Assembly: GCA_003151745.1 (NCBI GenBank) | Contig: PLYJ01000220.1 | Coordinates: forward strand, 1-42,706 | DNA: 42,706 bases | From: Bacteroidota bacterium | GTDB lineage: Bacteria; Bacteroidota; Bacteroidia; AKYH767-A; 2013-40CM-41-45 | Direction: 5' to 3' | In this document: positions 4,756 to 10,733 of the stretch, piece after piece | Position numbering within the stretch: the first letter of the stretch is position 1 | Layout of the letters: each line of letters opens with the position of its first letter | The notes under the pieces: model-generated | Told to the model about the DNA's origin: nothing | Databases searched by the model: none | Seen by the model: the letters and a program-made list of their open reading frames with translations, nothing else | Position numbers and translations under genes: made by a program

Positions 4756-4792
4756 TCTTGTCTCGGGAATGCCATCTCACTTGTTTAACCGT
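4756..4792 (+). promoter_or_regulatory. Candidate ECF-type promoter/regulatory element, copy A
   Basis: This stretch aligns without gaps to 7535-7571, upstream of the ECF sigma gene. It begins with TCTTGTC, ends with CTTGTTTAACCGT, and 28 of 37 positions match. It lies 55 bp before the ATG at 4848. Since the other copy sits directly before an ECF sigma gene, a promoter read by that sigma factor is a reasonable inference. No -35/-10 assignment from known ECF families was possible. Confidence 0.5.
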
Positions 4793-4847
4793 AAGTAGAA
4801 TGTTTAATTTAAAAATGAATACATGTATTAAATGAGAAACTAATAAA

Positions 4848-5312
4848 ATGAAACCAATAAAAGAGATGACTATGAAAACATTTATAGATAAACGAAGAAA
4901 CAGAGCTTTGACGGAAAAGGTATTCAATAAGTTTGGAAGAACACCCCTCATTCCGAAAAAGAAAGTGTTTGTTCCTGAAGAGAGAAGATCATTCTCCAAA
5001 GAGAATGATATCATCCTCCAAAGAAAAGTTCTTATTCATAAAAAGAACAGAATCAAATTTAAAGAGGGCAGATCCTTTCCCAATGAGAAAAAAGTCATTC
5101 TTCCGGAGAAGAGATCAAACACGAAAAGGATAGATGTGATCTTTAAAGAGAGGGTTTCATTCACTGAAAGAACAAAAAAATTTCTGGTGAAAAAGGAAAT
5201 GATCTTTGAAGGAATGATATCAATCCATAAAAGAGAAGTACTGTTTCATTTAGGAACAAGAACGTATCCTTACGGAAAGCCTGAAACGCTGCACCGAACA
5301 GATACGGACTGA
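4848..5312 (+). CDS. Lysine/arginine-rich 14-residue-repeat protein, unknown function
   Basis: This 154-residue protein is not recognised. It has 26 Lys and 16 Arg (27% basic), and the charge is strongly positive. Residues 37-134 divide into about seven units averaging 14 residues, each roughly K-x-x-h-h-h-x-E/K-K/R-x-S/L-F (for example KKVFVPEERRSF, KKVILPEKRS, RIDVIFKERVSF). The DNA shows the same period of about 42 bp. There is no signal peptide, Cys or membrane segment. The start at 4848 is the first ATG in frame; 4866 is an alternative. An upstream element shared with the ECF sigma gene supports transcription. Other frames across this purine-rich stretch are also partly open, so coding is likely but not certain. 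Possible roles such as nucleic-acid or envelope binding are guesses. Confidence 0.55.
   Translation: MKPIKEMTMKTFIDKRRNRALTEKVFNKFGRTPLIPKKKVFVPEERRSFSKENDIILQRKVLIHKKNRIKFKEGRSFPNEKKVILPEKRSNTKRIDVIFKERVSFTERTKKFLVKKEMIFEGMISIHKREVLFHLGTRTYPYGKPETLHRTDTD
4956..5249 (+). repeat. Degenerate 42-bp (14-aa) tandem repeats
   Basis: Seven units of 39-45 bp, all multiples of three, lie inside the 4848 gene. The protein pattern is kept better than the bases: a basic residue pair, two to four hydrophobic residues, a charged turn, then Ser/Leu-Phe. Unit sizes kept to whole codons favour a translated repeat over a purely DNA one. Confidence 0.55.
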
Positions 5313-5405
5313 TTTTAACCCGGGTTACCTCCAGGGATCTGATGAATACCGGTTAAAGAAGACTCTGGAGTATTTTGAGTACGCATACCAATCACGAAGT
5401 CCAAA

Positions 5406-5423
5406 TGAAGTGGCGCCACTTCA
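5406..5423. promoter_or_regulatory. 18-bp perfect palindrome before the FnIII-like gene
   Basis: TGAAGTGGCGCCACTTCA is its own reverse complement. It lies 57 bp before the ATG at 5481 and is not followed by a T-run, so it is not a usual terminator. It could be a dimeric repressor site or an mRNA hairpin. A TTGTTTAAC string at 5438-5446 just downstream resembles part of the shared ECF-linked element. Confidence 0.4.
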
Positions 5424-5480
5424 GGGTGAATGCGCGGTTGTTTAACAAACGCTTAATTATAAACATAAAAACAAAATAAC

Positions 5481-6137
5481 ATGAAAAAGTCAATTTTTAT
5501 TATGGCGATACTGGTGGTAAAGAAACCGGTGGTCGTTCTGAATCTGAGAAAGAAAACGGTCGCCCAGCTGATCGTTGATTCGAAAGCCTATGTGGCAGGT
5601 ATATCAGGGAATGTTGCTACGTTCCCTACGCCGAGTCCGGCGCTCTCAGATATTACCACGTTAATCAGCAATCTGGAAGCTTCGTCTTCTTCTGCGGAGA
5701 CGCATGCTAAAGGAGCTGTTCCCAAGAGAGATGCCGACCGTGCTGCATTGGAGCTCAAATTAAAAGATTTGGCACATTATGTAGAAACCATCTGCAGAGC
5801 CAATGCGAGTAGCGCAGCCTCTATTGCCAAAATGGCCAATATGACGCTCAAAACGCGCACGGCTCCACAGAAACAGGACTTCGTAATGACCCCGCTGCTC
5901 ACTCCGGGTGAGTTGCTGATGACGGCCAAATCGGAAAAAGGAAGAGTTACTTTTAACTTTGAACTGAGTACCGACATCACGAATCCAAGTCTTTGGAAAA
6001 GTGTGCAAAACAGGTCTATTGCTCATGCCAAGGTAACCGGTTTAGTGAGTGGAACCCGTTATTACGGACGGGTAAGCCGAACTGACAAGACCGGAACCTA
6101 CCAGGTAGGGCAGGTATTGAGTGTGGTCATACACTAG
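5481..6137 (+). CDS. Small fibronectin type III-like protein
   Basis: The 218-residue product has a helical N-terminal half (about residues 20-115, with KAYVAGISGNVATFPTP and a helix ending in LAHYVETICRAN). It ends in a beta-rich C-terminal half (about 130-218) with W..V....I..A.V.GL..GTRYYGRV, the usual end of a fibronectin type III fold. Proteins of this size and layout are common in Bacteroidota and have no established role. There is no clear signal peptide; the first 13 residues are only weakly hydrophobic. A strong terminator follows. The upstream basic-repeat gene is 168 bp away, with a palindrome in between, so separate control is possible. Confidence 0.7.
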   Translation: MKKSIFIMAILVVKKPVVVLNLRKKTVAQLIVDSKAYVAGISGNVATFPTPSPALSDITTLISNLEASSSSAETHAKGAVPKRDADRAALELKLKDLAHYVETICRANASSAASIAKMANMTLKTRTAPQKQDFVMTPLLTPGELLMTAKSEKGRVTFNFELSTDITNPSLWKSVQNRSIAHAKVTGLVSGTRYYGRVSRTDKTGTYQVGQVLSVVIH

Positions 6138-6189
6138 GCTCTGTTGGGTGTTGTCACTGAAGTGAAGGCTTCAGAAAGCAACGCAGTAT

Positions 6190-6230
6190 AAACCGGCTGC
6201 CCTTTCGCGAGGGGTGGCCGGTTTTTTTTT
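6190..6230 (+). terminator. Intrinsic terminator after the FnIII-like gene
   Basis: AAACCGGC (6190-6197) pairs with GCCGGTTT (6217-6224). There is a further inner GCCC/GGGG pairing around a CGCG-containing loop, and a run of T continues to 6230. It closes the 5481 unit 36 bp before the next gene. Confidence 0.85.
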
Positions 6231-6265
6231 CCTACATTGCATCCGTCTTTAAATACTCCTGTTGT

Positions 6266-7237
6266 ATGGAACTGAAACCTGAAATTGTTGCCCGCATAGA
6301 GAAGCTGGATGAAAAGTATAAGGCTATGGGCCAGAACCTGACCTCCTACCTGGATGGTTTGCTGTTTGCGGATTACCTTACTTACTGGGATTATATTCAC
6401 CTCGATACCTTGCTGAGCCTCCAATCGCCAAAGACCAGTTTCCCCGATGAACAAGTGTTTATCATGTACCATCAGATTACAGAATTGTATTTCCGTCTGT
6501 GCATGGTAGAGTTTGAGCAGCTTGAAAAAAAGAAGACCATGGATGTGGATTATTTCATTTCCAAACTAGGCCGCATCAATCGTTATTTTGATGCATTGAT
6601 TTCTTCTTTCGATATCATGGTGGATGGAATGGATGTTGCACAGTTTATGCAGTTCCGCATGTCGCTCCTTCCGGCCAGTGGTTTCCAGAGCGGACAATAC
6701 CGTATGATCGAAATCTGTTCCACTGATTTTGTGAACCTCATCACCAAAGATCAGGGTACTAAATACAGCGGCATCTATACCGATTCCATGATAGACGGGA
6801 TGTATGAACATATGTACTGGAAAGCCGGAGCCACAGAACTGTCAACCGGTCAGAAAACGCTTACACTCGAGCAGTTCGAAAAGAAATATTCTCCTGAATT
6901 CCTTTCCCTCGCCAAACGTTTCAGGACCCGCAATCTGAGCGCGATTTATCATTCATTAAGTGCAGACCAGCAAAAAGAGGAAGCCCTCATCAACGCGCTG
7001 AAACATCTGGATGTGAATGTAAACATCAACTGGAAGCTGAGCCACTACCGGTCAGCGGTTCGTTACCTTCAGAAAGACCCGGTGGATATTGCTGCTACGG
7101 GAGGAACCAACTGGCAGAAATACTTGCCTCCGCGTTTTCAGCGCATCAGCTTCTTCCCCTATCTCTGGAACAATGAAGATATGGAGAACTGGGGGAAGAA
7201 TTGGGTGAAGGCGAATGTGTTTGGTAAAAAGGACTAG
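6266..7237 (+). CDS. kynA: Tryptophan 2,3-dioxygenase
   Basis: The 323-residue protein is a heme enzyme that opens the tryptophan indole ring to N-formylkynurenine, the first step of the kynurenine pathway. Family motifs are clear: LLSLQ (50-53), FIMYHQ (65-70, matching the distal Phe/His pair of the Xanthomonas enzyme), QFRMSLLPASGFQSGQYR (129-146, with R131 in the position that binds the substrate carboxylate), H260 as probable proximal heme ligand, and ATGGTNWQKYLPP (277-289). The length is normal to slightly long. No other kynurenine gene is adjacent, but a RidA protein resembling 2-aminomuconate deaminase is at 36914-37327. It is flanked by terminators on both sides, so it is probably monocistronic. 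Confidence 0.93.
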   Translation: MELKPEIVARIEKLDEKYKAMGQNLTSYLDGLLFADYLTYWDYIHLDTLLSLQSPKTSFPDEQVFIMYHQITELYFRLCMVEFEQLEKKKTMDVDYFISKLGRINRYFDALISSFDIMVDGMDVAQFMQFRMSLLPASGFQSGQYRMIEICSTDFVNLITKDQGTKYSGIYTDSMIDGMYEHMYWKAGATELSTGQKTLTLEQFEKKYSPEFLSLAKRFRTRNLSAIYHSLSADQQKEEALINALKHLDVNVNINWKLSHYRSAVRYLQKDPVDIAATGGTNWQKYLPPRFQRISFFPYLWNNEDMENWGKNWVKANVFGKKD

Positions 7238-7322
7238 ACTCCCTTTCGATCAGACCCCCGTAGTTTTATATACGCTTACAAAAAACAAAGAATATGTTTC
7301 ATGCAGAGCATTGAGTCAGCAT

Positions 7323-7350
7323 AAATCAGGGGAGGCAAGTCTCCTGATTT
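7323..7350 (+). terminator. Probable terminator after tryptophan dioxygenase
   Basis: AAATCAGG (7323-7330) pairs with CCTGATTT (7343-7350) with some extension inward. Only a broken T tract (CTTAAATT) follows, so it may be a weak terminator. Confidence 0.6.
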
Positions 7351-7605
7351 CTTAAATTGAACCCCCTTTTTCCTCTTCCATCAAAATCAAAAACCCGGCA
7401 TGATATCTGAACAATATGCAAGGCCGTGTCCACTCTTTTAATACCCCCTGAAATCGGAGAACGAAAAAAGGGGCCTCCAAAAAGTGAAAAATAATGTCCT
7501 TGATATTCAGCCAATTACAAAATATTTGGGGGTGTCTTGTCCTCAAAAGGCATTCTCGCTTGTTTAACCGTTAGAAAAGGGATTGAAAAAAGGAATAACC
7601 AGGTC
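7351..7605 (+). other. Leader region of the ECF operon
   Basis: No separate gene is supported in this stretch before the sigma factor. The sigma reading frame stays open upstream to a TTG at 7537, but that start would place the shared regulatory element inside the coding region and add residues unlike the family. The region is therefore read as leader and promoter. Confidence 0.55.
7535..7571 (+). promoter_or_regulatory. Candidate ECF-type promoter/regulatory element, copy B
   Basis: This is the partner of the element at 4756-4792, with identical ends TCTTGTC and CTTGTTTAACCGT at the same spacing. It ends 34 bp before the preferred sigma start at 7606, a position fitting an autoregulated ECF promoter. 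Its function is inferred from position and sharing only. Confidence 0.5.
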
Positions 7606-9302: not shown

Positions 9303-10733
9303 ATGAAAACGTATCTATTATCAGCCAGCCTCTTGCTTCTGATTGGTGTTCCTGTCCTGGCACAGGTGAAAGCCGATCGGCAGGTGGGAGATTTCAATGG
9401 AATCAATTTGAAAGGCGCTATTAAAGCCAATATTACACAGGGACAAACCAATCAGGTGTCGCTGGAAGCCGATTCACAGGAAGAGCTGGATGCTCTCAAG
9501 ACCGAAGTAAAAGACGGGATTCTGATGATCAGGGAAGACAAGCATGGTTCCGGCAATGTGAAAATAAATATCACCGTGAAAGCCCTGAAGGAAATCGAAG
9601 TAAGCGATGCCACCGAGCTGCGCTCTACCGGGCCGATCACTGCAGATGAAATCACCATCAAAGGCAGTGGAGCAGGTGATGTGCGCATGGAATGTGTGGC
9701 CAAAAAGATTATTGTAACGCTCAGCGGAGCCGGCGATGCACATCTGAGCGGGACCACCGATATGCTGGAGGCTCATATTTCGGGAGCAGGAGACCTTAAA
9801 GCGTTTAAACTGCTTGCGCAAAAAGCGGAGATCACAAGCTCCGGTGCCGGAGATGCCAAAGTCAATGTTGTACAAAGTCTTCATTCCTCTGTTTCGGGTG
9901 CAGGAGATGTGGTGTATATAAATGAACCCGCAGAAAAAAGTGTAGAGGTGAGCGGTGCCGGTTCTGTCAGACAGTCGCACAGCAAATCAGATTCCGGAAA
10001 GAGCAGCTCTGACACTACTAAACTTTCGGTGGGGCATCACAAGGTCTTTATATGTGATGATGATGGCGACGACAAGGACGACGGTAAAGACGACCTGGAG
10101 CATAAGTTCAAACACTGGAGCGGACTGGAAATGGGGGTGAACGGATTGAGATCAGGCGCAAAAGATGGCATGACTCTTCCCAAAGGATCGGAGTATATGC
10201 AGCTGGATTATGGAAAATCACTCAGCTTCAACCTCAATCTCTTTGAGAAAGATTTTCACCTCCATGGTGAATTCGTGAACCTTGTTACGGGTCTTGGATT
10301 TGAGTTCAATCATTATGGATTGCAGAATAAAGTCAGCCTGAGGTATGACAGTGTCTACACTACAGCCAAAAATGAAAACAACACCAGTTTCAAAAAGAAC
10401 ACTCTTAACGAAAGCCTCCTGACCGTGCCTCTGATGCTTGATTTTAATACCAGCAGCAACCCGGACCGCAACTTTCACTTCTCCGTGGGAGTGATCGGAG
10501 CATGGAAAATTGGCGCTAAGACCCGTCAGAAATATATGGATACCGATGGGAAAGAAGTTTCACTTGTCAAGAGCAACGACTATAACCTGAACCCCTTCCG
10601 TTATAGCCTGACTGCAAGGGTGGGATACAAGAATGTGGGCCTCTTTGCACAATACGCCATGAGCGAGTTTTTTAAACCCGGTCATGGTCCGGAGCTTTAT
10701 CCGGTCTCCGCAGGAATCAGTCTGCACCTGTAG
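9303..10733 (+). CDS. GIN-domain protein fused to an outer-membrane barrel-like domain
   Basis: The 476-residue protein starts at ATG 9303, which gives a clean signal peptide (MKTYLLSASLLLLIGVPVLA). In-frame codons back to 9252 add a hydrophilic stretch and are not used. Residues about 25-225 are a GIN domain (DUF2807, putative autotransporter adhesin head type), with the turn SGAGD or GSGAGD recurring at 121, 141, 160, 180, 198 and, as SGAG, 217, as in a beta-helix. Residues 251-264 are Asp-rich (CDDDGDDKDDGKDD), possibly metal binding. Residues about 273-476 are beta-strand-rich with alternating aromatics and look like a small outer-membrane barrel of the PorT/OMP type. It is the third gene of the ECF operon, suggesting an envelope component controlled by, or sensed by, the system. 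The head-plus-barrel reading is inferred. Confidence 0.8.
   Translation: MKTYLLSASLLLLIGVPVLAQVKADRQVGDFNGINLKGAIKANITQGQTNQVSLEADSQEELDALKTEVKDGILMIREDKHGSGNVKINITVKALKEIEVSDATELRSTGPITADEITIKGSGAGDVRMECVAKKIIVTLSGAGDAHLSGTTDMLEAHISGAGDLKAFKLLAQKAEITSSGAGDAKVNVVQSLHSSVSGAGDVVYINEPAEKSVEVSGAGSVRQSHSKSDSGKSSSDTTKLSVGHHKVFICDDDGDDKDDGKDDLEHKFKHWSGLEMGVNGLRSGAKDGMTLPKGSEYMQLDYGKSLSFNLNLFEKDFHLHGEFVNLVTGLGFEFNHYGLQNKVSLRYDSVYTTAKNENNTSFKKNTLNESLLTVPLMLDFNTSSNPDRNFHFSVGVIGAWKIGAKTRQKYMDTDGKEVSLVKSNDYNLNPFRYSLTARVGYKNVGLFAQYAMSEFFKPGHGPELYPVSAGISLHL

Follow-up and report, generated by a model that had tools for sequence, protein, structure and literature searches.

Two copies of a 37-bp element lie in a 42,706-nucleotide stretch of DNA from a Bacteroidota bacterium (GenBank assembly GCA_003151745.1, contig PLYJ01000220.1; hereafter the window). 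One copy stands before a gene for an extracytoplasmic function (ECF) sigma factor, the other before a locus that holds a repeat array and a gene for a fibronectin type III (fn3)-like protein. Judged from sequence comparison, the two copies are very probably promoters of the adjacent ECF sigma factor, through which it would control its own gene and the fn3-like locus with its repeats. The sigma factor and its promoter code appear to have changed together, and differently in each lineage that carries this locus.

The two copies, at positions 4756-4792 and 7535-7571 of the plus strand, align at an offset of 2779 with 28 of 37 bases identical; this reproduces exactly the alignment of a first-pass annotation of the window. 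The ends it had called fixed, TCTTGTC on the left and CTTGTTTAACCGT on the right, are indeed invariant between the copies. The box pair is TTGTC-N18-TTGTTTAA, with box starts 23 bp apart. Only the boxes are kept: the spacer is identical at 8 of 17 positions, and outside the 37 bp the flanks are unconserved, with a similarity equal to the background. None of 100 dinucleotide shuffles of the window reproduced the pair. The gap to the start codon, given earlier as 34-55 bp, measures 55 bp for the first copy (ATG 4848) and 34 bp for the second (ATG 7606), and the misfit to the housekeeping promoter also holds, as there is no TTG-N17-21-TAnnTTTG just 5' of either gene. A genome-wide search, suggested by the same annotation as a check, used the 20 fixed bases and found two matches in the 4.6-Mb assembly at 0 mismatches and still two at up to 3 mismatches, each before a gene; the reversed pattern gave none. 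No wider set of sites in this assembly rose above the control: with the core cut to 14 bases and 2 mismatches allowed, there were 76 matches versus 113 for the control.

What an ECF promoter at this locus should look like can be read from relatives of the sigma factor, which occur at 32-40% identity in many Bacteroidia genomes. A set of canonical orthologs (L006-L034 and L101-L106) was taken to represent the PG0214/GFO_1088 family (NF058625) of Bacteroidota. In 33 of these 35 sigma genes, TGTAAC-N16/17-CGTC or a near variant lies 13-53 bp upstream of the start codon, with looser variants in the remaining two; the box starts are 22-23 bp apart. By its position and form, this pattern has the look of an autoregulated ECF promoter. 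The canonical pattern is absent upstream of the window sigma gene. Comparing ortholog upstream regions, another check put forward in the first-pass annotation, gave a two-box ECF promoter at the equivalent place and spacing, with box letters other than those of the window. The window element, having the position and the spacing of the ortholog promoter, therefore sits where an ECF promoter is expected, with the letters of both boxes changed. A search of the open-licence literature for the TGTAAC promoter found nothing relevant.

Further evidence comes from two genomes, here called G390 and G311, in which the order of genes for the fn3-like protein, a tryptophan-dioxygenase-like protein (TDO), the sigma factor and the putative anti-sigma factor is identical to that in the window. 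Their sigma factors are divergent, and both are without TGTAAC/CGTC. In G311, the sigma promoter reads TGGCACAAAA...TTGAGGATTCTAT, and eight further sites of that genome, nine in total, carry it as TGGAACAAAA...TCGAGGATT(A/C)TAT; seven of the eight lie before an fn3 gene at a distance of up to about 1 kb, and the eighth before a repeat array with no fn3 gene in 1.5 kb. The G390 sigma promoter recurs at exactly two sites, both of them fn3 loci. The window version is found in a third genome, G288, the only one to stand above chance level in a class-wide scan for the element at 2 mismatches. Four copies there match in the spacer too, their spacers being almost identical, and a fifth, looser copy was found by scoring; all five precede genes for a fn3-like protein of about 210 residues related to that of the window.

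The sites fall into groups accordingly. Over the 37 positions, the G311 sigma site matches the eight others of its genome at 27-33 and the fn3 sites of the window and G288 at 9-12; the G390 sigma site matches its own genome's sites at 29-30 and others at 10-23; and the window sigma site matches the window and G288 sites at 28-29, those of G390 at 21-23 and those of G311 at 12-14. Matches within groups range over 24-36 (mean 30.1) versus 8-25 between groups (mean 12.6). In three lineages, then, the sigma gene and the targets share one promoter, and the promoters differ between the lineages. The earlier proposal of an autoregulated ECF promoter with a target gains strong comparative backing in its regulatory part from the ortholog promoters and from the genome-specific sharing in G311 and G390, and needs changing in the identity of the target, as described below. 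The proposal of a small local regulon with one target also needs changing in view of the five fn3 sites of G288 and the nine sites of G311. As a side observation, three loci of a further genome, G372 (L167, L168 and L169), share an element GCATA..ATACAAtcGTTCaTTGA at about -625 to -721 from the fn3 match, with no sigma factor for comparison; it is possibly a fourth promoter version.

These comparisons bear on two other explanations. The first is that both genes are co-targets of a different sigma factor and that the local one is not autoregulated. Several further ECF sigma factors are encoded in each genome, and G288 carries the element with no visible ortholog; the ortholog promoters nevertheless imply autoregulation, and the version of the element tracks the local sigma factor in three genomes, which makes this explanation improbable. 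The second sees in the copies mere leftovers of a duplicated or mobile sequence that regulates nothing; it draws on the near-identical spacers of the four G288 copies and on a similarity of about 98 bp between the region upstream of the window sigma gene and two G288 loci. Duplication was certainly involved. The window pair, however, is conserved in its boxes and in neither spacer nor flanks, every copy in the window, in G288 and in G390 points towards a sigma or fn3 start downstream, as do eight of the nine sites in G311, and the same pattern is seen in three genomes with different sequences. We regard mere remnants as very improbable.

The sigma protein has changed as well. The canonical orthologs have a mean mutual identity of 52-62%, and the mean for the window sigma factor is 34%. 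Its recognition helix reads SIKKSVFRAK, in place of the QVKVYI(F/Y)RAR that is invariant in the canonical orthologs. The segments of regions 2.4 and 4.2 face the DNA in ECF sigma factors. Taking as conserved the positions kept in at least 90% of the canonical orthologs, and with the boundaries of the two regions defined by us, the window sigma factor keeps 23 of 30 conserved positions outside regions 2.4 and 4.2 and 13 of 28 inside (Fisher p 0.017). Residues 65 and 68 in region 2.4 and 138 and 141 in the recognition helix differ from the canonical ones in each of the three divergent sigma factors. The identity of the window sigma factor to those of G311 and G390 is 36% and 27%, that of TDO 84% and 77%, and that of a neighboring carboxylase about 90%; among the genes compared at full length, the sigma gene has changed fastest, and the anti-sigma candidate is also poorly conserved. 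In its domains, the 161-residue protein has the ECF (group IV) architecture (Sigma70_r2 at 12-73, Sigma70_r4_2 at 101-148). NF058625 is still its best NCBIfam match, at 88.1 bits, below the cut-off of 130.

There is a further sequence feature at these promoters that deserves separate mention. A box resembling the imperfect palindrome CTGATTTTCAG lies upstream of the second copy, and boxes like it recur, about as far upstream, at the sigma promoters of both G311 and G390, at the G288 loci L092 and L156, and at L197 of G390; with the window box, the loci having it are L092, L156, L107, L108 and L197, that is, sigma promoters and some fn3 promoters. All three lineages retain the box at their sigma promoter despite the changed -35 and -10 core boxes, and a second regulator may therefore act there. 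This bears on the possibility that the 37-bp element itself serves as the operator of another DNA-binding regulator, not of the sigma factor, in front of two transcription units under common control. Given the palindrome-like box upstream of several copies, other regulators may act at these sites, and the fixed right block of 13 bp exceeds a typical ECF -10 box; set against this, the position and the two-box spacing agree with the ortholog ECF promoters, the spacer of the window pair varies freely, and from genome to genome the boxes change with the sigma factor. An operator is thus unlikely, and we continue to take the element as a promoter of the ECF sigma factor.

The first-pass annotation placed a gene of basic repeats behind the first copy. 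Its locus remains the proposed target, now with another gene. Most plausibly, the region is a degenerate 21-bp repeat array in which one frame happens to be open, and the conserved target is the fn3-like gene behind it. With a period of 21 bp, a frame stays open at no cost. As a protein gene, this open reading frame is without relatives in Pfam, NCBIfam and the genome contigs, the only matches being weak, repeat-like ones within the order, and no frame of at least 45 codons is open in the arrays at L193 and L194. An array in G390 has an open frame of 157 residues, and some arrays may be translated. The autocorrelation of the window array at a lag of 42 is above that of all 2000 shuffles. For 37 of 45 fn3 genes, taken from many genomes, the upstream sequence has its best lag at 21, 42 or 63, with unrelated unit sequences; arrays that keep strictly to these periods precede most members of a multi-copy family of fn3-like genes across Bacteroidia (L143-L182). 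The array lies between the promoter and the fn3 gene in the window, at C50 of G390 and at the array-bearing sites of G311. At several loci of G288, the promoter comes after the array, which is therefore no fixed part of the transcript. A search of the open-licence literature on Bacteroidetes for repeats of 21 or 42 bp near fn3 genes gave nothing relevant.

The fn3-like protein is predicted to be a helical bundle followed by an fn3 domain: its AlphaFold model has a pLDDT of 85.6, and the matches in a structure search are fn3 folds, all generic fn3 domains. It is 57% and 55% identical to the products of the syntenic genes in G311 and G390 and 31-33% identical to the G288 proteins behind the element; a search of phage and plasmid records found no relatives. 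To propose a role at the surface or in adhesion would be a guess. Around the gene, a perfect 16-bp palindrome, GAAGTGGCGCCACTTC, occupies positions 5407-5422 between the array and the fn3-like gene, and no known RNA family was found at the locus apart from one sub-threshold DnaX-like match at 6170-6226. At L147, L149, L152 and L156, a leader motif GCGAAAATCG, followed by TTAA-containing sequence, lies about 100 nt before the fn3 start; this region possibly forms a small hairpin. The protein encoded directly after the sigma factor is homologous to the one at the equivalent position in G311 and G390, with one hydrophobic segment in all three genomes, and a Pfam and NCBIfam scan gave no match for it. 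The features of the locus are collected in Table 1.

Table 1. Features of the sigma/fn3 locus in the window (aa, amino acids).
Feature	Position	Strand	Remarks
Putative promoter, copy 1	4756..4792	+	before repeat array and fn3-like gene; -35-like TTGTC 4758-4762, -10-like TTGTTTAA 4781-4788
Degenerate 21-bp repeat array	4867..5286	+	20 units without indels; between copy 1 and fn3-like gene; open frame 4848-5312
fn3-like protein, 218 aa	5481..6137	+	predicted helical N-terminal part and C-terminal fibronectin type III domain; proposed target
Tryptophan-dioxygenase-like gene (TDO)	6266..7237	+	between both promoters; syntenic marker, not a proposed target
Upstream box CTTGATATTCAG	7500..7511	+	resembles imperfect palindrome CTGATTTTCAG; about 24 bp 5' of copy 2
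Putative promoter, copy 2	7535..7571	+	before ECF sigma gene; -35-like TTGTC 7537-7541, -10-like TTGTTTAA 7560-7567
ECF sigma factor, 161 aa	7606..8091	+	regions 2 and 4 only; regions 2.4 and 4.2 diverged
Anti-sigma candidate, 359 aa	8093..9172	+	directly after sigma; one hydrophobic segment at about residues 155-178, read from sequence
DUF2807/beta-barrel protein	9303-10733		separate gene downstream of anti-sigma candidate

It is worth pointing out that the window may not belong to the genome in which it was deposited. The tetranucleotide composition of the window (1-42706, G000:C269) correlates at r 0.84-0.93 with G288 and G390 versus 0.61-0.81 with contigs elsewhere in its own assembly; the remainder of the contig likewise differs from it. 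Since G005 and G007, both from its nominal family, reach 0.83-0.85, composition alone is not decisive. The carboxylase of the window is 88-91% identical to those of G311, G390 and G372, 82% to the second copy of its assembly and 78-83% in the nominal family. Composition and carboxylase identity group the window with genomes of genus g158 (G288 and G390), and it probably derives from a G288-like organism and was binned with another genome, on a contig that is probably chimeric or misbinned. The absence of further sites in this assembly is therefore weak evidence, and the count of two is probably low; a G288-like origin would explain two sites here versus five in G288.

Taken as a mechanism, the anti-sigma candidate, which is of membrane type, would release the sigma factor on a signal; together with core RNA polymerase, the sigma factor would then read the second copy to express its own operon and the first copy to give a transcript of the 21-bp array and the fn3-like gene. 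What the sequences show directly is the shared element, the common gene order, the altered sigma residues and the ortholog promoters; binding of the sigma factor to these boxes, the anti-sigma role of the downstream protein and transcription of the array are all inferred. The circuit would be old and its recognition code not, with TGTAAC/CGTC in most sampled Bacteroidia and another box pair in each of the window, G390 and G311. Several observations weigh against this account. The canonical TGTAAC/CGTC does not precede fn3 genes, where its best score is about 9 versus at least 18 for all but one true site. Many fn3 loci elsewhere, and five of the seven scored in G390, are without the element of the local sigma factor. 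The concentration of losses in the DNA-recognition parts is weak in the G311 sigma factor, which keeps 27 of 30 conserved positions outside and 20 of 28 inside (p 0.07), and is not seen in that of G390. Sigma trees built with and without outgroups are poorly resolved owing to long branches and give no firm placement. Lastly, the G288 assembly has no recognisable sigma ortholog despite its five window-type elements; the carboxylase beside the locus, present in all 18 other genomes tested, is also absent from G288, and the sigma locus is therefore probably just missing from this bin.

Autoregulated ECF sigma factors are well known, and ECF promoters are usually identified by way of this autoregulation (PMC3817407, PMC8103513). 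The window system resembles them (group IV) in its two-domain sigma factor, its own putative two-box promoter and the membrane-type anti-sigma candidate downstream. The members of an ECF subgroup are thought to have similar promoter sequences (PMC3817407), whereas the syntenic relatives described here each use a different one. With the PG0214/GFO_1088 family orthologs, the window sigma factor shares the N-terminal MTxxEYN and an equivalent operon logic, but it lacks their canonical promoter and recognition helix. Like the Das-Dma pairs of ECF21, it is a Bacteroidota ECF sigma factor adjoining a membrane-type anti-sigma candidate (PMC13088901). Dma proteins, from Bacteroides, are described as spanning from the outer membrane to the cytosol (PMC13088901); the window instead has the 359-residue candidate and then a separate DUF2807/beta-barrel gene. 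In the open-licence literature, we did not find a syntenic ECF locus with several natural codes among relatives and multiple targets changing in step.

A wider reading can be offered tentatively, and we hold it to be rather less probable than not: a multi-copy Bacteroidia cassette of promoter, strictly 21-bp-periodic array and fn3-like protein would be run by a dedicated ECF sigma factor whose code has been repeatedly rewritten per lineage, sigma factor and many targets together, as if selected for insulation from related systems. Orthogonal sigma/promoter sets have been assembled across ECF subgroups. One syntenic locus with three sigma/promoter codes makes a joint change of specificity, in a sigma factor and several of its targets, testable with natural pairs, and it would supply new, naturally orthogonal ECF sigma/promoter pairs. 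In addition, the repeat arrays and fn3-like proteins, an uncharacterised family, would gain a link to a regulator.

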